Positions 3,941 to 64,000 of a stretch of DNA of 64,000 nucleotides are shown here, piece by piece; position 1 is the first letter of the stretch, and each line of letters starts with the position of its first letter. This DNA comes from Arthrinium phaeospermum (lineage: Eukaryota > Ascomycota > Sordariomycetes > Amphisphaeriales > Apiosporaceae), in assembly GCA_006503535.1 (NCBI GenBank), contig QYRS01000007.1, positions 2,852,001-2,916,000 on the forward strand, read 5' to 3'. The position numbers were made by a program, and so were the translations under genes. The notes under the pieces are model-generated. The model saw only the letters and a program-made list of their open reading frames with translations. It was not told the DNA's origin and made no database searches.

Positions 3941-4644
3941 GGGTGATTTGGCTCGTTTCGATTCCTGAGAACTGGTAGACTTGTCGCATGAAGCAAGAGA
4001 GCGAGACAACTAGGCGGCGGTACTGACGAACCAACATGTGTCAGTCTACCAATTCCGCATTACCAATTTGTGTTACCAAACATAATTACTTAATATATAA
4101 AAATCATAAAATATTCCTTTCCATTTGATGACGGTCTCTTCATTTTACATTGTATCCATGTTAGACTTGTAATTTCATCCCAAGCCCCCTTTCCAACAGG
4201 CTGGTTCGCAGCCACAGCTGATATTCGGATGACCAATGCAAATGATCCGAACGCAGACCTATCAAGTAGAGTACAGGTCTAGCTACTTTCCACTCATGCA
4301 TTCATTCTAGAACACTTCTTTTGAGGACGTTGCAACTTGTGTCGGGAGGGTGTTGCCTAGCGCGCGCAACAGTCACTCTTAGGACCGTTGGGCCCGTTCC
4401 CACAAGGCGTCTGGCCCGGAAGAACGGCACGCATGCGCGATGAGTCGGCCTGGTGATCGAATATAGTTTAATTGTTGGTGATTTGGGCGGTCATTCCTGG
4501 ATGGCAACGCTCCAATGGGCACACTGATCATTTGGGGGAGCAACCTACCGATTGCAGAATTTATATAAGCGGAGCTATCTCCAGCTACCATGGCTATTTC
4601 TTCATCCGCCAATCTACCACGTCTATCTCTACTCATAATTCATA
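3941..4644. other. intergenic, promoter of the 4645 gene
   Basis: No coding region is supported. The stretch at 4070-4130 is AT-rich. A TATA-like TATATAAG at 4562-4569 lies about 80 bp upstream of the ATG at 4645, a plausible core promoter. Confidence 0.4.
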
Positions 4645-5304
4645 ATGGTCAATCTCGTAGCCGCCAAGAAAGCAGCCTCATGCTTCGTTGGAGCTTGGGG
4701 CTTCATCAACTCGACCCTGGTAAGTAATATGCATTACCTCCCCCTTTTCCCTCCCCCCCAGATCGCCATCCTCCAAAGAGTAGCCTAGCCTGCTGATGCT
4801 GAACACTGCCCTAACATAGAAATACCACCACGGGCGACATCGTCCCAACGACGGGCCTACCCCGTCCCCTCGGGCGCCTCCCTCACCCCCAACGGCTACG
4901 CCGCCTGCTCGTGACCGCCAACGACACCACCAAGCCCGACCTGCGACCCCGGTTCCTGACCCAGAACGACCTCGCCTCGGGCAACGACACCGAGTGGGCC
5001 AAGATCGCCAAGTACAGCATCGCCGCGGGGCCCTACCGCCTGTCCAACGTGACCTGGGACTGCGGCAAAGACAACAAACACAAAGACGGCGGTAACAAAG
5101 AGGAGGAGGAGTACGAGTTCGGGACCGCAGGGCACCCAGACGGGCAACTTCTTCACGTCGACGCTGCCGAGCCGCGAGGGGCCCTACGAGTTCACCTTCA
5201 AGTTCTACAAGTCCTGCCACGTGTGGAACCTGCACCAGCCGGTCGGCGGGGGTCTGGAGCGGGTGGCGTGGTACGAGAAGCTGCCGGACCAGCAGGTGAA
5301 TTGA
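4645..5304 (+). CDS. Hypothetical protein, two exons, frameshifted
   Basis: Exon 1 (4645-4719) encodes MVNLVAAKKAASCFVGAWGF and ends at a clean GTAAGT donor. The intron is 4720-4819 with branch CTAAC and acceptor ATAG. The second exon keeps protein-like composition only if read in different frames. SGASLTPNGYAAC (about 4877-4910) is followed by TKPDLRPRFLTQNDLAS and AKYSIAAGPYRLSNVTWDC (4930-5062). GTQTGNFFTSTLP and EFTFKFYKSCHVWN (5140-5225) then run to a stop at 5302-5304. At least two one-base frame changes are therefore needed (near 4905 and 5130). I do not recognise the family. It contains cysteines and several Asn-x-Thr sites, but exon 1 is not a strong signal peptide. Confidence 0.45.
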
Positions 5305-5708
5305 TTCGAGCTGTTGGTAGAATTAGTCTATTGAGTCCCCATTGGTTATAGCCAGTTAATCAGATGATATTAGGGATTTCATTATGAGGGGGAAAACCCC
5401 TCGGAGAAAGAAAAGAAAACGGGTATTATTATGCACAGATATATGACAAATTCAAGCGCTGGGATGCAAGTATAGATAGGCAACGCTTATTATTCCAATG
5501 GATGCTAAAAACACAAGAAAATATTATGGAACCTCGCCCCTCTCATTCCATCAGATATACAGCCTTTATATTGTGGCACTCCGCTCCCTCCCTTTTCTCC
5601 GATTTTGTTGAGGGTTGTATTGGAAGTTGGATGTTGTAACGAGGGGAAACATGCGATGGGTTTGGGTATCAGGTATGTCCTTTCATTGATGTTCCTTCCA
5701 TTCCTCTC
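5305..5708. other. convergent intergenic region
   Basis: This AT-rich 3' region lies between the plus-strand hypothetical gene and the minus-strand transporter. I see no genes here. Confidence 0.4.
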
Positions 5709-48161: not shown

Positions 48162-49328
48162 TCAACCAACCAATTGCTCGTTGTCAGGTGTGACACAAGG
48201 CACCACTCCAGTATCCCCCTGGGAGTCCAAATCCCCTTCCTTCAGTGCATGACCCATTTCCCATCGCCGCTTGACCGCGCCGGGCTTGTGCTCCGATTCG
48301 ATATACCGCTGGCGCGTAACCATGCCCGGGTATTTCTCCAGCCATGACGTGACAAGCGCTTGCCACATCCAGTCGTCCGGCGTCCGGCAGGCGCCCACCT
48401 GGTGGTAGGTGACCACCTCGATGCTGTACACCTCGTGGCCCGGCGCCAGGCGGTGCGGGTGGCGGTCCATGTCGAACGTGTAATCCGTCAGGCAGACGGG
48501 GCAGTACCCCTGCGTGGTGCCGTACGTCCGCGGGCCGTTGTCCCCTCGCCCCCAGGTGTCCCAGAGGATTTGGAGCTCCGGCAGCCTTCTTGGATACGCC
48601 CGGCCCGCGTCTCGCCGTCGTGGTCTCATCTCGTAGTGGCCACAGAACCGAATCCACTGCCAACAGTCATTTAGCTGTTTTCGGTTTCCCCCGGGGGTGC
48701 CGGAGAGCAGCACCTCGTACCGGACCGACAAGAAGCATTGGTCGTCCAGTATCGCCATACTGGGCTGAACACGCCAGATGCTCCCCGGGGCTGCAGATTT
48801 GGGCATGAATCTGGGCTGGCGCAGCCCTCTGCCTGCTCCGTAGAAGTGCTCGTTCATGACGAGCTGGAAGTGGTGGAAGCCAAAGTCCCAGATTCCGAGG
48901 CGGTAGAGATAGATTCGATCCTCGCACGGTGGGACGGCGGCATAAGTGAGATTCGTTTCAAACCGCCATGACTTCGAATATCGATGGTATTTGCCACAGG
49001 TGAAGCAGTAAAAACAGCGATCGCTGACGGTTTTCTCGAATGAGTAACGAATGGCTCTCGAATCAGCCTCGGAAGGATTCCGGGGCAAGAAGACAGCTCG
49101 TGCTACCTCACAGGTCAAGGACAATGCCGCGGCCGATTCGGGGGGCAGTTGAGACGCGATTTCTAGCAAGATATCTAGCGGTTGATTCAGCAGCAGTGAA
49201 TTAGCTTGCTGATGTATCTTTTTAGGCGGGTGCTGGTCCGTCGCAGTTTCTTGAGCCGAATCCCGTTTCGCCCGCGGCCTTTTCCAAGGCCCACGAATGG
49301 CTGCGACGAGTGACAGTATTACTCCCAT
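48162..49328 (-). CDS. F-box domain protein, paralogue of the 20.6-kb gene
   Basis: Intact single-exon gene of 388 residues starting MGVILSLVAAIRGPWKRPRA. The F-box-like segment LLNQPLDILLEIASQLPPES is at about 47-66, followed by CFYCFTCGKYHRYSKSW with a CxxC pair. It shares with the paralogue FHHFQLVMNEHFYGAGRGLR, CFLSVRYEV, CLTDYTFDM, GACRTPDDWMW and RRWEMGHAL, in the same order and spacing. The Met-Asp-Lys leader of the paralogue is absent and replaced by a short hydrophobic then basic N terminus. It is a putative ubiquitin-ligase adaptor; no target is known. Confidence 0.72.
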   Translation of the reverse strand: MGVILSLVAAIRGPWKRPRAKRDSAQETATDQHPPKKIHQQANSLLLNQPLDILLEIASQLPPESAAALSLTCEVARAVFLPRNPSEADSRAIRYSFEKTVSDRCFYCFTCGKYHRYSKSWRFETNLTYAAVPPCEDRIYLYRLGIWDFGFHHFQLVMNEHFYGAGRGLRQPRFMPKSAAPGSIWRVQPSMAILDDQCFLSVRYEVLLSGTPGGNRKQLNDCWQWIRFCGHYEMRPRRRDAGRAYPRRLPELQILWDTWGRGDNGPRTYGTTQGYCPVCLTDYTFDMDRHPHRLAPGHEVYSIEVVTYHQVGACRTPDDWMWQALVTSWLEKYPGMVTRQRYIESEHKPGAVKRRWEMGHALKEGDLDSQGDTGVVPCVTPDNEQLVG

Positions 49329-49708
49329 GGCACTGCCGCTTCATAGAATCCGAGGACCGTTGTTGTTGGGGAAGACAAGTATGATGTGAAAAAGGCCTGT
49401 GATAGAAAGGCTGTCAATTTGAGTTGGGTGGAGAAGCGGTGCATGCAATGAGTCGATTTGAGAGAGAAACGTTCTTAGGTTGGTAAAAAGGCGATTGCTA
49501 GCCAAAAGTAAAATACGGTCCGAAAAGAACTTGGGTTCAAGAGTACACGATCCATCAACAATTTGCAATTTCTTCTCACCAGGACCAAAACCACTATTCC
49601 ACCACTTCACAGCCCGGCAATAACGACAGCACGTACTGGTCGAAGCCATGATGACAAGCTAGCACAGAAGCAGGCAGGGTGTTGACAGGAGACTATGTAC
49701 ACCTCCGA
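49329..49708. other. intergenic, F-box gene promoter
   Basis: Contains a 102-codon minus-strand frame (49341-49649) beginning with a Cys-rich segment, but with no supporting similarity. Otherwise empty. Confidence 0.35.
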
Positions 49709-50993
49709 TCAACTAGTATCCCTAACATTGTATACCAACTTGACACCCCTGGCGCTCCGATGCTTGAGCTCCGCTAGACTGATCCATCATTAGCTGCATA
49801 TTAGTGCCAACAGAATTCGAATTTGCAATACACTCACCCGAGTGGGATACCGTCCAAGCCACCGTCCCGCAGTGCGACGGGATGGGGGACGACCCTGCCC
49901 TCCGCGATGAGCCTTGCAGCCAGTTTCCAGAACATGACCCCGAACTCGTAGTGCGACGGCATAGCGGGTATGTCCATGCCGAACTTGGTGAAGGCCTCCC
50001 CGAACGTGGTGTACGCCAGGATGGGCGTGGCCTGGATGTCTGGTCTTGGCCACGTGTCTGTGAGACGCAACGCGACGACTTGCATTGGTGTCTGGCTCGT
50101 TTCCGGCATGGCTTCCGCGACGATATGGTAGCTGGCCTCGGTGCTGATGCAGTCGAGGACGTGGTGCAGGGAGTTGTGGGTGTAGTCTTTGATGCTGCGG
50201 GCGCACTGGGGATCGTGGTAGTGAAAAACGGCGTCGGCGCCTCGGGACTTGACGAGGTCGAAGTTGGCCGGGCTCGCTGTGGTTACTACTGTCAGCCCGG
50301 AGCTGGCACATTTACAAGAGCATAGTCAGTCACCACCAGAAAGGGTTGGTAAGACACTTGATATTTCTGTCACCTACGCTTTAGCAAATTGTATAGCAAG
50401 AGTGCCGGTGGCGGTGCTGCCTCCATATATCAAAACGTAGACCGGCTTCTTCAGCGGTTTCTGGCTGTCAGGAAGAGGCAAGCCCAGCGTCATGTATAGC
50501 GCCTGACCAACCGTAGTCACTCCGAGGCCGAAAGTAGCTGCTTCTTCGAACGTCATGCCCTCGGGGATCTTGGCTAGGTAGCCATCGCGGACCAGCACGT
50601 ACTCGGCAAATGCGCCGTCGGTTGCACAGCTCTGATGTCAGTATTAGATGTGAGGGGCGAGTGACGAGGTTTATGAAGCTTCGAATGAGGTCGGCATACC
50701 ATATTGGCGCCATGACACTGCCCGTAGACAGCATCTCCTTTCTTGATCTGGGTCTTGCATCCCTCCCCAACTTCCACCACGACGCCGCTGATATCGCATC
50801 CGACAATACCGCCAATTCGTCCTGTTCTGTCGACATGGTCCACGTCGGTCGGGTTGAGAGCCACTGCCGCGGTCTTGATCTTGAAGTATCCCTGACGCAC
50901 GGCCGGCTCTTGGACGTTCTCCACGGCGGCAACACCGCGCTCTTTAATTATGAGTGCTCTCATATTGTTCTTGTGGATGGCGACTACAGGCAT
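49709..50993 (-). CDS. Zinc-type alcohol dehydrogenase-like / trans-acting enoyl reductase family (MDR)
   Basis: Exons are 50700-50993, 50378-50631, 49838-50302 and 49709-49778, giving 360 residues; all junctions keep frame. The GroES-like N-terminal domain has [11 protein letters not shown] and [14 protein letters not shown]. The NADPH-binding Rossmann fold has [20 protein letters not shown] then [20 protein letters not shown] and [18 protein letters not shown]. The last small exon gives the family end [16 protein letters not shown]. This is the toxD/LovC-like fungal medium-chain reductase group, some of which serve polyketide synthases as separate enoyl reductases. No PKS lies within the window, so it may have an independent quinone- or enone-reductase role. 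There are no catalytic zinc ligands, as usual for the group. Confidence 0.88.
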
Positions 50994-51308
50994 CGTGTCA
51001 AACGCATTTCAACGGTTTGGGGACTGTCGTTATTTAACTCAAACTCAGTGGTCCCGACGGAGCTGGAAGGGACCAGTTCCGGCCCACCGGCGTCTCGGAG
51101 ATATCTGGAGGCGGCTTTAGGATTACACCGACGGAGAGCCCTTCCGGTGCATTGCTTGGCAGTTGAACCATCACTATTGTCAGGAAACGCACGATTCAAA
51201 TATAATATCATTGGCCACTTTTATGAATTAGTCATCAGGCTTGACGTGTCTATCAAATGTCATGGTCCCAACCTTTTGGTTTTCCCGATGGCATCGGCAA
51301 AGAATTCG
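50994..51308. other. intergenic region
   Basis: Lies between the reductase promoter and the 3' end of the S8 protease gene. Nothing is recognised. Confidence 0.4.
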
Positions 51309-52382
51309 TTACAGCCCATGACAAACCATCTTCTTGACCACGTCCACCATATGATTCCTCTCTAATAAGACGCCCGGCGAAAGATAGTCGTAGTGATCCA
51401 CTTCCACCGTCAGCTCCTGCAGCAGTGCCTGCACCATATCGAACGTGCAAAGCACTCTCATCTCGTCCTCGCTGATCGAGGGCCAACACAAACGCACAAT
51501 ATCGATTATATCGCAGGCAAAAGCCGCCGCGATCGGGGCGGCAAACGACGTGCCTGATTTGAGGGCATCCTTCCCATGCCATTTCGAGGGTACTGAGATG
51601 CCCAGCGTCGACAGGTTCAGTCGTTTGGGAAGAGGTACGGGACTGATACCGCCATCCTTTCCATTGCCGTCGCTGGCATGAACGCAAACGACGCCCCCCG
51701 GCCTATTCGCTGGGTATGCGCGTGGTCGATTGGCGCCTTTGTTCGAGGCGGCAGCGAAGAAAGTGGTTGTTCCTCGGGCGTTCTCAATGGCTCGGTCGAT
51801 CCCGGCATGCCGCACCCCGTTCTCTAGCCCCAGTGAAAGACATATGATATGCACGTTTTGGCTATGAGCCCATTCAATTGCCTATAAAGGTTAGTCTTCG
51901 TTATTGTCTGGATAATTGAAGAAAGAAAAAGAAAAGACATGTTCTAAGAACTCTTATCGCGGCCGGGATTAGCTTACCCGTGCTATCCGGCCCAGGTCCG
52001 AAAACTCGATGGTACGATCGTCGGAAACCTTTGCTACATAAAGCTCAGCTAGTGGCGCAGTAGTTAGTAAGAGCCGAGCGACATGTGTTCCGTGGCCATG
52101 TTTGTCTTGGTAGTCAGTCGGATCCCCTACGAAGCTCTTGCAAGCTCGGATCCTCCCGGAGTCAGCTTCCAAGCAAGCATCAATCAAACCATCGTGGTCT
52201 GAGTCGATGCCAGTATCCACCACAGCTATGCGTGTCTTTGCTCGCCGCCAGGCCTGCCATGGAGGGATTTTGGTGGCGTTGTCAGCCTCGCGAACCATGT
52301 TCGCGACGTTTTTGGCTTCGGACATGAACCGATGTGCTCGTTCAATCTTCCTGTATTTCTGGTCAATGACCAAATCGGGCAT
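51309..52382 (-). CDS. Subtilisin-like serine protease domain (S8), HET-Q2-like candidate
   Basis: Exons are 51978-52382 and 51309-51881 with a 96-bp intron, giving 325 codons from the Met at 52382. The full catalytic set is visible: Asp56 in IAVVDTGID, His97 in HGHGTHVA, oxyanion Asn182 in AAASNKG and Ser247 in SGTSFAAP. No signal peptide or propeptide is seen, so it should be cytosolic, unlike secreted subtilases. It starts 20 bp after the upstream ORF (52403-54343) ends, on the same strand. The two are probably one gene: a helical regulatory region followed by the protease. Established parallel: in Podospora anserina the subtilisin-like HET-Q2 cleaves the gasdermin-like HET-Q1 encoded next to it. 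Candidate gasdermin-like genes lie 5 and 11 kb away here. Confidence 0.85.
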
Positions 52383-52402
52383 CTAAACGGTGTCAGAAAG
52401 AC

Positions 52403-54343
52403 TTACTCTGGGTCATTCCAAGCCTCATGGTTGTTGCCATTGTCGCCATCGAACAGTAGAATCTGAGTTGGCGGCTCAGGCTGCGTTGGAAGCGTATCAA
52501 CCACGTCCAGCCACTGAGAGCCCTGAGTTCGGGTGGGGAAACTCTCAAAGAGCCTAGGGATATCCTTGAAGCTGTTCTGGATCTGGTTCCACAGTGGGAC
52601 CAGTATGTAATTGTAGATGGCAGCCGTTCGCTTTTGACTGTCCTGGAGAGCAGGGTGATATAGGGCGTCGGTCAACTCCTGGAAGTGCAAACATGCATCA
52701 CCGACTTCACGATGGCCGTCATCCAGTGTGCGCTCGCCCTGCTTGAGTAGCCGGTGTAGCATCATCTTCTTTGATAACCGATTCGTTTCCCAGTCCAGGT
52801 CTTGTTTCGTCGGGTCAAGCCGGGTCCTCAATCCCATCTGCATAACCAGCAAACCAAAGGAAAGTATCGAATCTTCCTCATCTAGTTCAACGTCCATTTC
52901 GAGACGCGATGAGCTGTTTAAGGAGACATCTAGATATACCCGCCACTGGTCTCGGAGTGTCGAGCCTTCTGGGAATGAGTACAGTCGTATTCTGTCAATG
53001 AGCCAGTTGTTTTGAAGCCATCGGTTGGAATGCAAGTGTAGTAAAGACATTGCAAGTAATAGCTCCACCATACGACTGTCTTTCAAGTGGAAACTATAGC
53101 CCTCGCTGTCGTCCATGGGGAACACAAGATCTTCAAGAGTGAAAGGATCCTCGCCAACATCTCTTGGATGCGGAGACTTTGGGACGCCCGGTTTCGCGGC
53201 GCTGGGCTTTTCCGTCCATATGAATTCGTCATCAAAAGAGACTTGCAACTGTTCCGATGACCTGGCATGCTTGTCCAAGACTTTACACATGCTTCGCGAC
53301 ATTCGCGCAGGACGTATATGTTCGTCAAACTCCCTTCAGTATGCATATGAGAGAAGTCCCTGTTCCATCAACAATGACTGTGGAGTTGGGCAGCTTACCT
53401 TTTGCATTTGACGCATGTCCAAAGACTATTGTTAGTCTTCCTGCATGATGATACCAGCATCTCAAAGTCCAGGACATGATTAGAGCCGCTCTCATGAAAC
53501 CCCGAGAGATGGACCATGGCGTTATGGATGTAGTTGCAAGTAAGTTTATCGGCGATATGCCCCAGAAGAAAGTCCGAACTGGTACTGGCTAAATGTGCTC
53601 TCTGAATGAAGCTGATCTCATTTTCTTCGAGTAGCCGCGCGTTCCCTCTGTTGACTTCTGTGCCTGCGGAGGATGTCGACGATGTGTCCTTCAAAGCTTG
53701 ATAGAACTCAGTGACGTTGGACCTCAATGTCTTCCAGTGTCGTTTACGTTTCGAGCCTTCTGGAGGATAGAAACTTATATATGTGGCCATATCTTCCTCA
53801 GTTTCCGGGTTCTCATGTGATTTGAGACGTATTTGCAGCGCTGTGAGATTTGGCCACTCCTTCTTTTAGATGTACGTCAGAAGGTTACGAGATAGAATTA
53901 TAATTATATTTTTTCTCGTATCGCCAAATGCGTCGAAATCCACTTGTGCCAGGGAATGAGTTGATTTAACTTACAAATCGGGACTTGTTCTTGGAATCGC
54001 AGGCGCCGTCTCGGACAAGGTGCTCTAGTGTAGTTAGGAAAGCCATCAATGATGCCCTCAGTCTCTCGAACTCCTCTGGAGAAATGTCTTCTGTTGTCTG
54101 TACATCATCGAGATGCCTGGGCAGAAGATGAAAGGCCGCACGGATCTCGGTGATCGCGTTCTGTACCACGAGTCGGGTAGTAGAGGAACGGTGGTATTTG
54201 GCGCTGGCATCCGGAGGAAGTGCAAGAGTGAAGACAGGGATAACCGAGATAAGTAAATTCCATTCTTGTTGGGCATGAACTAATACATGCATCTTGTTGG
54301 CTAGGTATACAAGATTCTCATCTACTGAGGGAAAGTTAGGCAC
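52403..54343 (-). CDS. Helical region upstream of the S8 protease (DUF7580-like?), probably the same gene
   Basis: Exons are 53975-54343, 53399-53862 and 52403-53333; introns at 53863-53974 and 53334-53398 have consensus ends and keep frame. The product starts MPNFPSVDENLVYLANKMHV and is helix-rich (TEIRAAFHLLPRHLDDVQ, KRKRHWKTLRSNVTEFYQAL). It continues with CNYIHNAMVHLSGFHESGSN, DSRMVELLLAMSLLHLHSNR and SFGLLVMQMGLRTRLDPTKQ, and ends NHEAWNDPE. The pattern resembles the helical domain found N-terminal to fungal cytosolic S8 proteases (I believe DUF7580); this assignment is from memory and tentative. Between this stop and the protease ATG lies a 24-nt stretch starting GTAAGT and ending TTTAG with CTGAC inside. 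It looks like a shrunken intron, but splicing it would not bring the frames together. Confidence 0.7.
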
Positions 54344-54707
54344 CTAACTGGGCTTGCTCAGAAGCCCGAGGTTGAGTGGTTAATAGCACACGTGGTGGAC
54401 TCAGCTGACGGCCCAATACGTTGCCGCCAATCATTGCGATCGTAGCGGATGACGGTCAAAGCGGGGTAATGTGAACAAAGAGCCGTCGGATCACTCGGAG
54501 ATTAGAATATATTCTTTTTTAATCCGACTTGATTTGATCCTTCATGATAACGAGTGCAGTGAGCCCTTATTAAATTGACAACAAACCGTTGCGGCCTATT
54601 GCAAACAGAGCTACTAGCCTTTTCCCCGCCACCCCAAGTCGAGGCGACTTGAATTCACGCGGCTTGAGCGAGTACGCGACTGGACCTGTGTAGCTGTCGT
54701 CAGGTGG
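54344..54707. promoter_or_regulatory. Divergent promoter between the S8-protease gene and the zinc-finger gene
   Basis: 364 bp between two divergent start codons. The sequence is AT-rich around 54500-54560. No specific site is recognised. Confidence 0.4.
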
Positions 54708-56778
54708 ATGATAGGGATTGTCGGTATGCCTGAATACCCAATGAACACTGGGAAAGTCCCTGGTTCAACAAGTGCGAGACCGGATATACGCCAACTTTCC
54801 GTTGAATGCCTTGCTCTTTTTCGGTCACTGAATGTAACGACTACGGAGTTGGACCATTGGAGGGATGTCTCAGCAGGGAACATCCTCGAACAAAACGACC
54901 TTACAACCCGGCCCCTAGGACATAACCAAAATGCCAGGCAAAATCCTCGGCGTACAGCCTCCATTGGGAACAGTTTCCAGCTATGGGTCAACTACAGTGG
55001 CGCACAGGCTCCGGGCACTCAGTCACTTGATGACCGGTTAAGAACCCATGAAGACATCAAAGAGATGCTGGTTGAGATACTTGAGATGCTTCACCGAAAC
55101 CTACAGCACTGTATGTGTTGGGCCACTTTGTGCGTTATATCTCCGTAGAGCTGACCCCAACTGACCCTATAAAACAGTACAGTACGATGCCGAATCTTTG
55201 GGCTCAGAAAGCTCAGATGACTCTTCATCTGATGACAGTGCAACCGATATTGAGGAAGAGGCACTCTCTAGTGTCGAGAGCGCGATCAATTACCTCATTC
55301 TTATTGTGACCGCTATGCGCCGATCAGCTATTCACAATGAAGAGTACGAACTGTCATTGCGAATTCAACCCGAGGAGGATCTCTTGTTCGAGACATGGGC
55401 AACAGTCTATACACAGCGGGAGTGGCCTTCAGCACCGAGGTCGCTTTGCCAACATATGGGTAGAGCCATCTCCATTCGGCGGATGAAAATAATGAGAGCG
55501 GTCAAGCGAAAAGCTACCCATCAACCAGGAACACCCGGCACTCCCGAGCCTCACCAGATTATACCTACCCCTGAAGCGAAACCGACTCCAGGCGAGCACT
55601 TAACCGTCCCAGTCCGAATTCCTCAGATGAAGCAAGACATCAATGATCTCAAGAGAAAACATCAAGACGAACTACCCACTCAATTTGATGGGAGTATGGC
55701 TAAACGGTTCATCAAGGCTCGGCAAACTATTTCAATTCGAAGTACTGGGGTTATGCTCCATGGAACTGCGTTCGAATACCCAGAATTGCCAGCGTTTACT
55801 GCAGGAGATTTGCATTGCCCCTGCCCATACTGCGCGAGACCTCTTGAAACTCATAAGTTGAGTAGCAATGCTTATTGGCAGTAAGTCAAGTAAACCCCGA
55901 TTCTGAAGTGTCACTAAAGGTCTGGTAGCGCCCATCTTGACAGCGACATTCAGCCATACATGTGCATGAGCGAACAATGCAAGTCACCGATAGTTTTCTT
56001 CAGCGACAAATCACTATGGGCCGAACACATGACCACGGTGCATTCATCGCAATGGAACCAGACAATCCACACAGCAACATGGACTTGTGAGGTTGGCCAT
56101 GGTGACGAGCCTATCGTGTTTCACAATGAAGCTGATTTCGTGGGCCATATGAGGGATCCCAGTAACCACCCAGAACGCACAACCCCAAGTGAACAACAGA
56201 TAGACATGTTGGCAAAAGACAAGCGGGCTTCAGCAAAACGCGAAGAAACATACTGCTGCCCAATCTGTAACTGCACTCCCAGCACCCTCAAGCAACTATG
56301 GGACTCAGGAAACACCAAACACCTGCGGACGTTGCTGGATGACCATGTCGCCAGGCATTTGAAAAGTGTATGCTATAATGCCCTTCGGTGGACGCTCCCC
56401 AGCGAAAACAAAAGTGTGGCAGCGTCATCGCACGATGAATTCAGTAACACATCAGTTGGCCAATCATCGGGAAATGATATCTCAGAAAACCCAATCCCAG
56501 AGGAGGAGATGGCCGACAGGCCACATATGTTTGAGGATAGTGGCAGAATAGGGAGTGGTCCAGAGGAGACGGATGATGCGCTACCCGACACAGCATATGA
56601 CCATTGGGGCGGAATTGGCATACCTGAGATTGTAAAAGAAAGCCCGTTGCCTCGGAGGACGCAATCCAACATACCTCCCCTTCTTTCGCCTTTACCCGAA
56701 TACATCAGAGACATGGTCGAGGAAGGACTCAGAGACGGGGTAATTAGTCGGAGAAAGGTTCTGACCAAAACTTCGTAA
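54708..56778 (+). CDS. C2H2-type zinc-finger-module protein (acuF-like), no NTPase domain
   Basis: Exons are 54708-55110, 55178-55880 and 55929-56778, giving 651 residues; the introns are 67 and 48 bp. The N-terminal helical part contains HEDIKEMLVEILEMLHR, followed by an acidic Ser/Asp region (SESSDDSSSDD) and SLCQHMGRAISIRRMKIMRA. The fungal zinc-finger module follows: CPCPYCARPL, HLDSDIQPYMC, EQCKSPIVFFSDKSLWAEHM, TWTCEVGHG, CCPICNCTPS and LDDHVARHLKSVC. This Cys/His arrangement recurs in many fungal NLR-like proteins with ankyrin or NB domains. The tail (LSPLPEYIRDMVEEGLRDGV) carries no recognisable repeat or NTPase. It is related in organisation to the minus-strand gene at 59978-63017, which adds a P-loop domain. 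Likely cytosolic or nuclear; its role here is inferred from neighbours. Confidence 0.8.
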
Positions 56779-57242
56779 TACGAGTCGACAGCCTAGTAGC
56801 AAGCCACCTTGCTTACCCATATTCGAACACGGATCTCGCACGTGACGAACTCACTTTTCTAAATGTGCAGTTCTACTCCCCGGGACAACACGGAAATTAG
56901 TCCGATATCTCCATGGCGGTTGACAATGGCATGATGCGACTTATTATACCTTTACTAGCATTTGATAATGACGATCGTTGAAACGATACTTGATCACGTG
57001 ATGAAGAAGACGTATTTGCATACCAGGCCGCCAATGAGAACATGCTGCGCCTGGTTTTGATGACGTGAGAGGCCTCCTGGTTTTGATGACGTGAGAGGCC
57101 TCCTGGATATTGGAGCTCACAATCACGTTCCAAGGCAATGCATCTTATTTTACCCATCCATACTATAATTTTATGATTTAAATATACCTTACATTCTTTA
57201 TTCCAAAGTAACTTACGGTGTCGTTGACCACAGGTTAGAATA
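56779..57242. promoter_or_regulatory. Intergenic region with CRE-like tandem repeat
   Basis: 464 bp upstream of the gasdermin-like candidate. It contains the 26-bp tandem repeat at 57051-57102 and an AT-rich 57150-57200 segment. Confidence 0.45.
57051..57102. repeat. 26-bp perfect tandem repeat carrying TGACGTGA
   Basis: Two identical units, 57051-57076 and 57077-57102, each include TTTTGATGACGTGAGAGGCC, followed by the first four bases of a third. TGACGTGA matches the ATF/CREB (CRE) type of bZIP site. The repeat is 141-192 bp upstream of the ATG at 57243. Confidence 0.85.
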
Positions 57243-58136
57243 ATGCATCAAGCAAAGCCGACGTTTCATTTGGCCCCCAACTTTTCAACGCCTCCGCCGC
57301 CCGATGGCCCCTTCCACTTGGGTACCGTGATCCGCAATTTCACAAAGCGCGAACAGATGCGACCCTTGAACATGAACCCTGTCGATCGTATACCGGTGGA
57401 CCAAGTTTATACCGACGAGAAAGAGGGATTCGAGGCGTCCCGCTCGCAGCTCCAGTCTGGCGCACTGGGACTTTGGGCTCGCTTTCTCGGGCTCGAGGTT
57501 TTCGGAGTTGGCGCCAGTGCGGGGTTTAACCTAAGCGCCGCGCGCGACGCCGAGGATGTTATCACCGCGGACCGAGTCGAGACCATCTTCTTCTACCCTT
57601 CGCCCGACTACATTAGGCGCTGTTGCGAAGAGGGAGGCCCCGTGAAAGAATGGCTAGAGGCACACAACTACCGCAAGCCGGTGTTTCTAGTTACGGGGCT
57701 CAAAGTGGCGAGAGGATTCTCGCTGGCGTCAAAGCGAGGGACGCAGTGGGGGACACAGGCCGAAGTAACTGCACAGAGCCCCGAAGGATTCGCGGAGGCT
57801 GGGCCGAAGATTGCGGGCAGTGTAGAAAGGGGCAAATCGCTATCCTTCGAAGGATCCAGTGACATCATTGTGGGCATCCAATGCTTGAAGCTCTCGTACA
57901 GGACGAAGTGGCACGGTATGGGCTCTCGAACCCTCCAGGACGGGCTCTATACCAAGGGCGCTGAGTTTCTGGAGGATGGACAAGAAGGCCATGAGAGCGC
58001 TGCATCTACTGGCGAAGGGCTTGTGGTCGAGCATACTCTGGACAGCGACTTTCCCGAACATTCCAGGATGGGTTATCACGATTCTTCGCTAGGGGACGAG
58101 ACTTGGCTGATCCCTGGGATGAACAAGACGGAGTAA
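57243..58136 (+). CDS. Gasdermin-like candidate (HET-Q1/RCD-1 type), copy 1
   Basis: Single open frame of 297 residues from the ATG at 57243. Landmarks are FHLGTVIRNF near residue 22, LGLWARFLGLEVFGVG (about 75-90), VETIFFYPSPDYIRRCCEEG (about 108-128), PVFLVTGLKVARG (about 144-156) and IIVGIQCLKLSYR (about 205). The copy at the window end shares this order: a GHII-type start, ETYIIQPTEEYVEDS and FMITGLMIARG. I believe this family corresponds to the fungal gasdermin-like proteins, pore-formers activated by protease removal of a short C-terminal part; that is from memory and context, not a search. The position next to zinc-finger and S8-protease genes fits. A consensus intron (58133-58190) overlapping the stop could replace the last residues with a 45-codon tail ending at 58329. 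Confidence 0.55.
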   Translation: MHQAKPTFHLAPNFSTPPPPDGPFHLGTVIRNFTKREQMRPLNMNPVDRIPVDQVYTDEKEGFEASRSQLQSGALGLWARFLGLEVFGVGASAGFNLSAARDAEDVITADRVETIFFYPSPDYIRRCCEEGGPVKEWLEAHNYRKPVFLVTGLKVARGFSLASKRGTQWGTQAEVTAQSPEGFAEAGPKIAGSVERGKSLSFEGSSDIIVGIQCLKLSYRTKWHGMGSRTLQDGLYTKGAEFLEDGQEGHESAASTGEGLVVEHTLDSDFPEHSRMGYHDSSLGDETWLIPGMNKTE

Positions 58137-58646
58137 GTCTTGAGAAGTAAGCAGTGTGTACATAGGTACCTAATGGTAGTGTTGCGTTAGCTGCCAAAAA
58201 TATGGGTTGTACCCGCTGGAGGCTTATTACCCCGCTGTAGACTCAGTGATTGATGTGAATGTGGGGACTGGTGCACCAGAACGAAGGTATCGAAACCTCA
58301 GCTCATTTGACTTACTCGGGTGTCGGTAAATGGCTTTCCAGGACGTAGTGAACACATGCAGGCGATATCACTGCTCATGCATAGGTAATATGAGGGAAAA
58401 TCCATCCAGAGTCCCCATCTTTTCAGAGCATGAGCGATGCACCACAGGTGCTTCTAAGTATGTCGGTACCGGGCGATGGGGTTGTCATCGACTTAGCGGT
58501 CCGCACCGCGCCAAAACGCGCTAGCCACTGACTTTAGGGGGCTTCTGAAAAAGGTCGCGTCAAACTGAACTTCCCTTTATTACTTCCACACTCACCAACA
58601 GAAACACACTGTCGCCACAGCGAGGCAACCACTAAAATACTTCAAC
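58137..58646. other. intergenic region, possible alternative 3' exon
   Basis: Contains the open 58191-58329 segment that could be a spliced C-terminal exon of the preceding gene. The remainder is promoter of the 58647 gene. Confidence 0.35.
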
Positions 58647-59360
58647 ATGCCCGGAACTTTCAGGAGCCTGGTAAATGAAGAGACGTTCAGGCGGACAGAA
58701 GCCAGCGCGAGGTCGAAGAACCGCATCCGCGAGGAAGAGAAGGTTGCAAAAGTGCTGGCTGCACGTGATGCCCGACTCGCCGCGATCGAGCGAGGCGAGC
58801 CATTGCCCGCCCCCGAGTATCTTCCGGGCCCGCTCAACATGATCAAATTTCACCTGTGGTCTCTGGTGGCTTTCGATCACTTCCTGGGGGATGGCCGCCT
58901 CTTTGCTTGGTCCAACATTTCCTTCCACCAGCACTGGGAAGAGGGTACGTGTGTATATGCTGAAGTGGACCCCGACAAGCCGGTGGGGGGAATGATCTAT
59001 CTGGATCCCAACAATGCTTGGGACTTTGAGCTCTTCAAGTCACCCGAGCGCTTCATGGAACCATTCCCTCTTACTACACAAGAGACGGAGCCCACCAACA
59101 TCCAGTGTACACTGATTGACGAGGATCATGTCGTCGTTCAGGTGCCGGCCCAGCTCTTTCGTTATAACGGAGACGGAAAGGTAGTGCCGGCGCCCGACGG
59201 CGTACCCGATGTCATCGAGCTATTCGGTATCAGAGACCGAGATAACGATGAGAATCTTGCGAGGAATCGACAGCGCTTCCTGGATTCTCTAGCCGCCGCT
59301 GCCGCGAAGAAGGAGAAAGCCAGGAAACGCCGGAAGCGTTTGGCGAAACGCGCCCACTAG
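58647..59360 (+). CDS. Hypothetical protein with charged ends
   Basis: Intact 237-residue single-exon ORF from the ATG at 58647 (MPGTFRSLVNEETFRRTEAS). The N-terminal 60 residues are a charged helix (RIREEEKVAKVLAARDARLA). The centre is globular and aromatic-rich (KFHLWSLVAFDHFLGDGRLF, AWSNISFHQHWEEGTCVY, AWDFELFKSPERFMEPFPL). The C terminus is an Ala/Lys/Arg helix (AAAAKKEKARKRRKRLAKRA) that could be a nuclear localisation signal. I do not recognise the family. It sits inside the candidate cell-death cluster, on the same strand as gasdermin-like copy 1. Confidence 0.7.
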   Translation: MPGTFRSLVNEETFRRTEASARSKNRIREEEKVAKVLAARDARLAAIERGEPLPAPEYLPGPLNMIKFHLWSLVAFDHFLGDGRLFAWSNISFHQHWEEGTCVYAEVDPDKPVGGMIYLDPNNAWDFELFKSPERFMEPFPLTTQETEPTNIQCTLIDEDHVVVQVPAQLFRYNGDGKVVPAPDGVPDVIELFGIRDRDNDENLARNRQRFLDSLAAAAAKKEKARKRRKRLAKRAH

Positions 59361-59977
59361 AAGTCTGTACCACGGCAATATTCTGGGATTCCCATCAATC
59401 CTGGCAAACGACATAATATTGGCACCAACGCGTGCTATGATGACTGAAGTGCTTCTCGCCTTCAACGTTGCAACACAGAGGCAGGCGCTCGATAGAGGCC
59501 AGCACACCCGACCAAAGGGCAGACCAACTATTACTGGTTAACCCCCACGAAGAACTCGACATGATTCAATCATGTCACGACACAAAAGCCGTCGCTTGGC
59601 AGCAACAGCACGACGCACCTCGGGAACACCCGACTACTGCCGGGTGGTCCCAACAGAGAACTTGCCATCCTCCAACCTTTTCATTGGTGGCGTGCTCACA
59701 AGAGACCCTGGGCATTGCGCCCATGACAGACTTCATGGTAGGATCCATACTAGGCTTGAGGGCCATCGAGCCACGCCCTTCGACGCATACGGTATGGCGG
59801 CATACGAAAACACCACGCACCGCATACTGCCAGCCAGCCAATGTCTCTGCAGCAGTGGAGGCAAGTGGATTTCGGGCTTTCGCTGAAAAGCGAGCTTCGC
59901 GACACTTTGGCTGTACATAATATTGATATATCTCCCGAGGGCTATGCGAGCTTGAAGTATAGTAATGCCCATTTGCC
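59361..59977. other. convergent intergenic region
   Basis: 617 bp between two converging genes. There are no repeats of TPR, WD40 or ankyrin type in any frame, so the P-loop gene does not obviously continue here. Confidence 0.4.
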
Positions 59978-62900
59978 TTACGCAGGTCCGCTCACCATGA
60001 TCTCTGGTGGAGACGGCCCAGCCGCCTTTGTATAGTCTAAATCTAACTCGATTACTTCCACCACATCGGTTTCTGGCTCGAGGGTAGGCGAAGAAACCGG
60101 TGTAGGTCTGATCAAGTTGATGACAATAGACCTGAAGGGATCTTTCGAGTCTGTAGCGCGGGCCTTGCCTGGACGCCGAGGGACGATATCCCCGGGTAAG
60201 TAAATGTTGTCGAACTGGTTATCTGCCCCCGGCGCCTCGTACAGGTTGTAAGGACGTGCGTGGATCTGGGAAAACCCGAGTGAGGCTGGAACTGCCGTTT
60301 CCCGGGTGGTCAGGATGGCCATGCCGCGGATGGGGCTGCCTGGGAGCCGCACCCCTGCGAAAAAGGCTTCCATATTCTTGTTCACACCATCCAGTATAAC
60401 GAGCCACCTCTCCTTGGATTTGTTGTTCATGGTGTACAGCATCGCCTCCACGAAAGCGGCTCCGCGATCGGCGATGGCGAGCACGCTGAGAAGCTCGTTC
60501 ATCTCGAGCAGTTGCAGCCCGATTTGGCCGAATACCCGATCGAACTGACTGATTCCAGTGGCGTCCTCCAGCTCTAGGGCACGGACATCGATCCAAAACA
60601 CCCGGAGGTCGGGGTCCTGGGACAAGGCGTAACTTGCAGCGTTGCGAGTCTTGCCGCTGGCGGAGGGTCCAGACAAGACTACCAGGAACTTTCCATCACT
60701 CGCGATGGTGCTTTCAATGGGCGCCGAATGAAATGGCTCACCATCGTTGAGCAAGGGAACGTCTAAGTAATCAGGGCGGATACTGGGATATTCGGGAGGG
60801 CGATGGGATCCAAAGCCAATCATTACTGCGTTCATCTCCGTCTGGATTTCATCCAAGCGGGTCAGTATCGTATGCGATGAACCATCACGCCAAGACGAAT
60901 AGGAATCGCGCTTCGCCATTCGCTCGACGCTGTGACTTCTCCCCGTCGAGACATATCTCGTGGTTACGCACAGCATGTCGCCCAATCGGACCAGCGGCAG
61001 CCAGGGCCTTTGATCATCCCCCATCGGCATCTTGATCTTCATGGGAAAACCGTAGTAAAGGTCGAGGAACTGGTCCGACAGATTGCGAAGCCGGACAATC
61101 ACCTCGGACTCTGTCTCCCTTGACCACATCAATTTGCCATATACCGGTCTGTCATCCCTGGGAGCATATTGGTGCAGTCGAGATACAATATCTTTGAGTT
61201 TCGCAAACCTGGCCGGGTGGTCCATGTCGTCCTCGAACGATGCCGTGTCGTCGGACATGTCTGTGCTGTCGGACTCGGCGGTCCGGGTATTCGAGACGGA
61301 TTTGGCGTCATTCCCCTTTGTGCCCCAGGGCAGCGAGCGCAGAGCAAACTCGTGTATGTGCTGGATGATGTGCTGATCCAGCGTCTTCTGTACTGTGCCT
61401 TCGCTAGTGAAGGCACACAACGGACAGGAGATGGGCTCCAGCACACGGGCCTCACTGAACTTAGCCAGGGAGGGAAGGGAGCTGTCGGGCACCAGCTTCT
61501 TGTGCGCTTCACCGGTGTGCGCTTGCCATGCTGCCATGGTGTGGAACGTGCTGTTACGAGACCGATCCGGATCCGGGCTTCGGGCGCATTGGCTGCACAC
61601 CCACTGAAGCGTGCTGTGGTGGTCTTGGACGTGTTTCAGGAGGTCTTCCGAGGTCAAGTACATCTCTTCGGGCGTGGAGCAATTGTCAAACACGCACATA
61701 TAAGGTAGTATGTCCTGCGCAACATGGCCCCTTTAAAATAATGTTAGTCTCGCTAATGTTCTCCTTGTATTAAGGTAATATTGTGACCTACTTCCATCTG
61801 ATGACGTTTCTTGTGTAATCGGACGGCAACATATCCGCACAGTATGGGCACTGGATGAACTCTTCACTTATGGGCTCGGGGCAGCGTGGGTAGTCCTGAA
61901 AGGCGCCCGTCCTCGTGACTTTGGTTGCAACCGAGGGCGTAGACTTGGCTGCCAGGAGGTCGGACTTGAAATGCTGACCGATTTCTGTGGCAGTCTGGGC
62001 TGTGAGACCCGTCATTCGACTTTCCACTAGTGACGGCTCGCTTTGCTTTGCGGGTAGGTTGATCTTGGGTATGGTTTGGTCAACAGCAGCGGGGCTTTTG
62101 GTCTGGCCGTTCGGTGCTGTATCCTCTACTGTCCCGCTTAGCAAATTCTTGGGCGTTCCTTTGGGCCCAGGCGCAGGAGGTGCTTTGGAAGAACGCATGT
62201 TCTTGGTGGCATGCACGATCCGGTTCTGTCGCAGAATGTTGCCACGAATCAGTCGTTTTTGCACCGTCGTGAGCCGGTCAAATCCGTTGGCTGATTGAAA
62301 CATCTCGTAGTCGAAAGGGGCACCCTGGTCCGTCTTGATAGACCCCAGGAGGATGGACCTGGCGAGTTCCTCTTGGTAGGCCAGGTACTCCGACTCCACC
62401 AGACGAGAGTCGGCTCTTTTGAAACGGAACTCGGTGCCCGATCTTCGCATCATGGAAGAAAAGTGCGCGAGCTCAGTGATGGTCAGCCGTATGCTGAACC
62501 TTTGCGACCCAAAGTGGGTGTCGCCGGACTCGGATGGGTGCGAGTCCACCTCACTGCCGTCGTCAGAAACGTCAAAGAAGCCGAAGCCGTCGTCCTCTGG
62601 TTCACCTTCTGGTTGGGACGAGCTGGCGTCATTCACCGCCGTTTGTCGGAACAGCTCTTCATCTGTATGAGGATATAAGCTTGTGGTTCCGTTTTTGAGA
62701 GGCCGTTACAGCTACTGACCAATGCGCAGGCACTCCAGGAGATCTTCACACAGGGCAGATAACAGCCCAAGGATGATCAGTCGCACATCGTTTCGGTCCC
62801 TGACCCGATAGTCGAGGGATGCCTTTGAGGTGCCGAGCGCTTGCAGTCCATAGGCCCAGAGGTTGAGCTCGGCCTGTCGCATCTGGAACCATTGCGCCGG

Positions 62901-63017
62901 CCACTCGGCGGATCGCGGGGTCGCGGGTGAGAGGCACATAGAAAAGAGGTGCTGGCAGGCCTTTGTGCGGGCACTGATGGTCCCTCCTTGAGATGGGAGG
63001 GCCGCATCGGAGTCCAT
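59978..63017 (-). CDS. NLR-like protein: zinc-finger module plus C-terminal P-loop NTPase
   Basis: Exons are 62720-63017, 61792-62662 and 59978-61730; introns of 57 and 61 bp keep frame, giving 973 residues. The N-terminal helical domain (TKACQHLFSMCLSPAT, LIILGLLSALCEDLLECLRI) is followed by an acidic linker, LTTVQKRLIRGNILRQNRIV, and the zinc module. The module reads CPYCADMLPSDYTRNVIRWK, GHVAQDILPYMCVFDNC, LLKHVQDHH, WVCSQC, SCPLCAFTSE and LDQHIIQHIHEFALRSLPW. A P-loop NTPase follows: Walker A GPSASGKT (about 744-751), WLVILDG (Walker B, about 833-839) and a sensor-like MAILTTRET. Fungal NLRs normally continue with WD40, TPR or ankyrin repeats; none is present and the protein ends VSGPA. 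It is either a short NLR or a truncated gene. It is head-to-head with gasdermin-like copy 2 (293 bp between ATGs). Confidence 0.83.
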
Positions 63018-63310
63018 ATCGAATCAACAAATGTCGACAAAGCCGTCTCCGATGAAGCTACAATTTTGCGCGGTTGTCGCATCGAGGATGGGAAGGCGGG
63101 GTCTTCGTTGACGATGGGAACCAACCAGTGGCCTCCCGGTCAGGATAAGCATGCCCACTACGCCAATTATTTGACGCCTGGCCGCACAACATGGGTTCAG
63201 CTGCATATGCCTGTACGTTCGAGTCACATATTTTATTAACCATTAGTCTTGTACTCGGAGTTGCTCCTGTTTCTACATTCCTCCCGCGACCCGCATGGCC
63301 GTTTGTGAAC
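63018..63310. promoter_or_regulatory. Divergent promoter between the NLR-like gene and gasdermin-like copy 2
   Basis: 293 bp separate the two start codons. No clear motif is recognised. An in-frame ATG at 63191 could extend the plus-strand protein, but a start at 63311 fits the family's short leader better. Confidence 0.45.
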
Positions 63311-64000
63311 ATGTCTTCCAAATGTTGGTTCGTTCTCCGCCAACACCACTACCCTCCGCCTGTTTTTCCTAAAACTGGCACAGGGAAGATGGGCGGGCCC
63401 CTGTGCCTCGGGCACATCATTCCGAACTTGAGGCACTTGGACAATGTCATCAACACCAAGGAGGGCCCGTTGGCCATTCCGTCCGACATGCCCATCTACC
63501 CGTCGAAAGCCTGGGATTTCAAGTGGGAGGGCAGTGCTGAACGCGGATTCGACGCATCCGTGAATGCTGGCGTCCCCATCGCTGCAGCAGCGGGTATTAC
63601 CGTCAAAGCCGAGACGGCCGTCGCATTCCAGCGCTCGGTGCATAACTTCTGGGAGTTCGATGCACTGGAGACGTACATTATCCAGCCCACCGAAGAGTAC
63701 GTCGAAGACTCGGTCGAGAGCGAACAAGTCGCTGCGTATTTGAGGAAGAGAAGGGTGCTCAAATCTCCCTCCGTCTTCATGATCACAGGATTGATGATTG
63801 CGCGAGGGGCTTCGAGTCAGACGTCTTCTGGGGAAAAAACCGAAGCCAGTCTCCGACCAGGCATGTAAGTATTGTCATTGATAATATTGGTGCAGTCAAT
63901 TACCAAACGCTTCGCTGACGAGGTGTGAAGAGAGCTTCCTGCTGTTGCGGAGGCTGGCATCGGGCTAGGCACCAGCCAGTCTACTTCGTCAGCATCGTCA
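63311..64000 (+). CDS. Gasdermin-like candidate, copy 2 (partial, runs off window)
   Basis: Exon 1 is 63311-63864, the intron 63865-63930 (GTAAGT, GTGAAG), and exon 2 begins at 63931 and is cut by the window end. The family pattern is stronger here than in copy 1: GPLCLGHIIPNLRHLDNVI, YPSKAWDFKWEGSAERGFD, AGVPIAAAAGITVKAETAVA, ETYIIQPTEEYVEDSVES and SVFMITGLMIARGA. Exon 2 carries an AEAG segment equivalent to one in copy 1. As for copy 1, pore-forming gasdermin-like identity is inferred from family memory and the NLR/protease context. Confidence 0.6.

Follow-up and report, generated by a model that had tools for sequence, protein, structure and literature searches.

A fungal locus of two gasdermin genes with separate S8 protease genes and linked zinc-module genes in Arthrinium phaeospermum

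Gene content of the locus

We analyzed a 64,000-nucleotide stretch of Arthrinium phaeospermum contig QYRS01000007.1 (hereafter the window), whose final part, together with its flank, holds two gasdermin genes, GSD1 and GSD2, each with its own nearby subtilisin-like (S8) protease gene and an adjacent zinc-finger gene. With somewhat better than even confidence, we read this arrangement as a three-gene cell-death cluster of gasdermin, S8 protease and zinc-module gene. The gene set listed in an initial annotation of this DNA proved real, with S8, gasdermin and zinc-finger genes all found again; of its interpretation, the linkage of these genes stood and the single shared protease did not.

The first protease gene, S8-1 (51309..54292, minus strand), has a splice model of five exons (54292-53975, 53862-53399, 53333-52407, 52350-51978 and 51881-51309) encoding 884 residues. 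Next come a gene at 54708..56778 (+), the fungal gasdermin GSD1 (57243..58136, +; 297 residues, single exon), an open reading frame (ORF) at 58647..59360 (+), and a zinc-module gene at 59978..63017 (-), whose splice model shares 80% identity with Apiospora saccharicola PG996_013706 across residues 1-560. GSD2, an RCD-1-close fungal gasdermin of 296 residues, occupies 63311..64000 (+) and continues beyond the window to about 64267, with the flank read giving an exon at 63311-63864, an intron at 63865-63930 and a second exon from 63931. A second DUF7580-S8 gene, S8-2, follows the end of GSD2 in the 5-kb flank read (about L009:5744-8695), so each gasdermin is paired with a separate protease gene; this rules out one protease serving both, and with it the earlier proposal of two modules sharing or competing for a single enzyme.

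Both S8 genes match PF00082 above the Pfam cut-off (E 1.5e-7 and 2.1e-8 in S8-1, 3.8e-6 in S8-2) and carry DUF7580 (PF24476; E 8.2e-20 in S8-1, 1.7e-23 in S8-2). The catalytic D, H and S and the oxyanion N are readable in both translations, bearing out the earlier description of an S8 protease with an intact catalytic set. That DUF7580 is kinase-like is a guess on our part; a kinase fold was considered and dropped, as a profile of six exons found no PDB match at E values up to 10. Our literature search found no paper on DUF7580, and NCBIfam, a library built for prokaryotes, had no match for five proteins.

A search for GSD1 relatives gave 29 proteins. The searches with the zinc-module protein and GSD2, in which scoring was limited to the 7991 and 7997 candidates with most words in common, yielded at least 16 and 83 relatives, respectively. 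A profile of GSD1 with its 29 relatives matched RCD-1 (E 2.9e-16), and one built from 21 of the 83 GSD2 relatives (alignment A4, without GSD2 itself, its first row 84% identical to GSD2) matched RCD-1-1 at E 7e-71 over profile positions 1-245 and HET-Q1 at E 2.3e-7. These profile matches place the small family among fungal gasdermins, as first supposed; the pore-forming domain has the gasdermin fold, and in the fold comparison GSD1 shares that of RCD-1. GSD2 is 84% identical to A. saccharicola PG996_013707. GSD1 consists of a core to about residue 240, a variable linker (241-268) and a C-terminal tail with a recurrent E-x-W-x-x-P motif in its family, where column identity is 0.45 in the linker and 0.61-0.80 in the core except for the loop at 166-198 (0.49).

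GSD2 might instead work as RCD-1 does, killing through two incompatible co-expressed alleles with no cleavage and a redundant protease. The RCD-1-1 match of its relatives' profile speaks for this, as does the report, in the available text of the review PMC12881547, that RCD-1 acts via heteromeric alleles without being cleaved. The tail of about 50 residues that GSD2 has beyond the RCD-1 match, and the adjoining S8-2, whose D, H, N and S motifs can be read, argue the other way, and we consider this mode very unlikely here. GSD2, RCD-1-close but still next to a protease gene and longer by a tail, would be consistent with descent of RCD-1's cleavage-free mode from an ancestor under protease control.

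The zinc modules were aligned from 9 of 16 genome places and 5 relatives; a further alignment, A2, covers 14 of the 16 found proteins. Most of the 14 aligned modules have three finger-like C/H sets besides a CPxC pair and end in an 'SLPW'-like motif, although a ligand is missing from individual rows. Their profile aligns with the EGR1/ZIF268 fingers (E 8e-5), and Pfam C2H2 matches fall below cut-off; the common Cys/His module initially described shows in most rows as CPxC and finger-like sets, but is incomplete in places and short of a Pfam C2H2 call. The EGR1/ZIF268 match would also suit pathway-specific DNA-binding regulators, comparable to the transcription factors of metabolic clusters, an explanation that we regard as distinctly unlikely. 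Among ten relatives, a Pfam scan of the C-terminal parts found NPHP3_N/NACHT in two (NPHP3_N in P0040 and P0042), Sel1 in one and S8 in one. The 59978..63017 product has weak nSTAND/AAA_16 matches below cut-off; its P-loop is readable, as the initial annotation saw, and its Pfam NTPase matches (E 0.047 and 0.06, below cut-off) do not carry the further step of assigning it to the NLRs; nor does any Pfam match at E values up to 1 in its 584- and 305-residue exons complete an NLR architecture. The modelled A. kogelbergensis protein (548 residues; mean predicted local distance difference test score 62.5) has long helices ahead of the fingers.

Ordinary neighbours of the locus include an F-box-like ORF (48165-49340, -; E 0.0024, below cut-off) and a fragment of a GroES-like alcohol dehydrogenase (50577-51008, -).

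Linkage across the genome and in other species

Genome searches with a profile check found 9 gasdermin-like loci in the same genome, along with 30 S8 places (33 rows merged to 29, plus S8-2), 18 DUF7580 places (merged from 19 rows, and including C5:2728k below cut-off) and 16 zinc-module places, all of these counts being lower bounds. The zinc-module places are the union of matches to three query sets minus three Sel1-only rows; they replace a first linkage count that used 13 places, 11 of them near DUF7580. A DUF7580-S8 gene lies within 6 kb of six of the nine gasdermins (C7 twice, C12, C2, C6 twice), and all six of these S8-paired loci also include a zinc-module gene at no more than that distance. 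The S8 places without DUF7580 have neither a zinc-module gene nor a gasdermin within 10 kb (0/24). Overall, 13 of the 16 zinc-module genes lie within 10 kb of DUF7580, and 12 of the 18 DUF7580 genes have a zinc-module neighbour.

At the C2 locus, the protease and gasdermin are flanked on both sides by zinc-module genes, one of whose products has a kinase-like C-terminus (E 0.0036, below cut-off). A 503-residue kinase-like ORF (L040:7452-8960, -; Pkinase E 1.8e-4, below cut-off) lies beside this locus.

We also observed gasdermin-like ORFs in other settings. Those of L033 (C5:3128001-3138000, ORF 4391-4921, +) and L034 (C5:3020001-3030000, ORF 4629-5624, -) lack S8, CHAT and zinc genes in their vicinity, and by eye their neighbours combine a hydrophobic N-terminal region with a kinase-like or DUF7580-like C-terminus that received no Pfam call. 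CHAT proteases were considered as partners of S8-less gasdermins and set aside, with three CHAT matches genome-wide and none near a gasdermin locus. The ORF L035:4205-4519 (-; C7:2549k) matches only gasdermin profile positions 3-32 (30 residues, E 5.7e-8) and may be a gene fragment.

Divergent zinc-module/DUF7580 gene pairs occur at L047 (C2:4672501-4678000) and L045 (C3:4420001-4430000), where neither an S8 nor a gasdermin place lies within 10 kb. Their DUF7580 proteins have hydrophobic N-termini that are possibly HeLo-like, a label that Pfam did not support; these may be the signalling pair of the gasdermin clusters working through a different output. Within about 8 kb at C9:1466-1474k lie a zinc-module gene, a Sel1-type match (38% against the C-terminal portion of P0043) and DUF7580.

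Across species, seven species or isolates have both zinc-module and gasdermin relatives. Judged from locus tags rather than from sequence, four of the seven, three of them Apiospora, have consecutive zinc and gasdermin tags on contigs of the same listed size, and in Trichoderma camerunense the identifiers are three apart, again on a contig of the same listed size. These five species cover Amphisphaeriales and Hypocreales; by tags, the linkage in relatives asked for at the outset is present in five of the seven.

Weighing the readings

The simplest competing explanation is that these are plain HET-Q-type two-gene clusters, with the zinc genes unrelated members of a variable defence neighbourhood. 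Two-gene protease/gasdermin clusters are established in reviews, and zinc-module genes are also present where no gasdermin was found. Set against this are the zinc gene at every S8-paired gasdermin locus, the proximity of most zinc genes to DUF7580, and adjacency in two fungal orders, and we think this explanation rather unlikely.

Several observations nonetheless weigh against the three-gene cluster. Three of the nine gasdermin-like loci (C5 twice and the weak C7:2549k) have no S8 or zinc gene, and also no DUF7580, within 10 kb, and three zinc-module genes lack DUF7580 within that distance. Under uniform placement, zinc/DUF7580 proximity is expected at 0.7% per gene (binomial P about 1e-25, or about 1e-21 once merged to 14 loci), but these values ignore common descent, and a single old linkage kept through duplications would give the same. 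Two of the three zinc-module query sets came from gasdermin loci, favouring copies there; the unrelated Dactylonectria query P0043 alone found 15 places, 12 near DUF7580. Adjacency is absent in A. arundinis (different contigs) and in Apiospora sp. TS-2023a (tags hundreds apart, on contigs sharing a listed size), and the three Apiospora among the five tag-adjacent species probably represent one ancestral locus. The GSD1-family tail overall (0.44) is conserved no better than the linker. The zinc-module model has no significant structural match (0 of 23 rows at E <=0.001), which leaves it without a known fold and is no proof of a new one. Finally, P0031, in which the zinc module is fused to S8, has no DUF7580 and no oxyanion Asn that can be clearly read; it may be either a deletion chimera or an artefact of annotation.

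Proposed mechanism

In the three-gene cluster, by analogy with HET-Q1/HET-Q2, the S8 protease would cut the gasdermin in its linker, after about residue 240. The predicted zinc-module protein is the best activator candidate, since its gene tracks with DUF7580 rather than with S8 or gasdermin alone, making the linked third gene a candidate upstream receptor or adaptor for the protease and gasdermin. More tentatively, and at less than an even chance, zinc module and DUF7580 may serve fungal immunity generally as receptor and transducer, in an inflammasome-like relay with a swapped output. DUF7580 fused to S8 would then drive gasdermin in a pyroptosis-like manner, DUF7580 preceded by a hydrophobic N-terminus that is possibly HeLo-like (L045, L047) may form a necroptosis-like pore directly, and the zinc module would be an adaptor linking NTPase-like, kinase-like, NACHT and Sel1 sensors to one transducer. 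Zinc/DUF7580 pairs with and without gasdermin, if alike in action, would join pyroptosis-like and other fungal death outputs through a single signalling pair. The available text of a 2025 review (PMC12881547) names the stimuli activating putative fungal sensors as a major open question, and leaves control of gasdermin-activating proteases to future work.

Comparison with known systems

Clusters of protease and gasdermin are already known: about 80% of fungal gasdermins have a protease gene within 10 kb (PMC10197012, available text), and about 63% have S8 (available text of PMC10197012, PMC12881547 and PMC10989679). Here, a protease gene lies within 10 kb of both gasdermins of the locus and at six of nine loci genome-wide. 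The zinc-module partner was not met in the literature. The available text of PMC12881547 contains no 'zinc finger', that of PMC10989679 no 'zinc', as also PMC11138114; PMC9815663 has neither 'zinc' nor 'C2H2', 'zinc' occurs once in PMC10197012, in a reference title, and the available text of PMC13304501 and PMC7982415 uses 'zinc finger' only for metacaspases or in a reference title. It was likewise absent from titles and abstract openings among the matches listed, although the main survey, Clave et al. 2022, may describe it; the suggestion that coupling of gasdermins to zinc/P-loop proteins may be undescribed agrees with the literature found, subject to that survey. The zinc-finger gene recurring beside gasdermin/protease sets may be an undescribed third part of a fungal suicide switch.

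As in Podospora anserina HET-Q1/HET-Q2, a gasdermin stands beside an S8 gene and has a C-terminal tail of comparable size, HET-Q1 losing about 40 C-terminal residues (PMC10989679, available text), and the profile of GSD2's relatives matches the HET-Q1 pore. Unlike HET-Q2, which has 388 residues (same source), the 884-residue S8-1 model is longer and carries DUF7580, and a zinc-module gene is linked. Neurospora crassa RCD-1-1/RCD-1-2 belong to the same family, with GSD1 of the same fold and GSD2's relatives far nearer to them than to HET-Q1; GSD2 differs in its additional tail and in having a protease gene to itself. NLR-type proteins with zinc fingers are known from Sordariales (PMC12258605), where in the available text the fingers are mostly C-terminal and 'gasdermin' does not occur, whereas here they are N-terminal and gasdermin-linked. 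In fungal Q2L NLRs with an S8 or CHAT protease, a receptor-type protein likewise controls a gasdermin via a protease, but the protease sits inside the receptor (PMC10197012, available text), whereas here presumed receptor and protease are separate proteins except in P0031.
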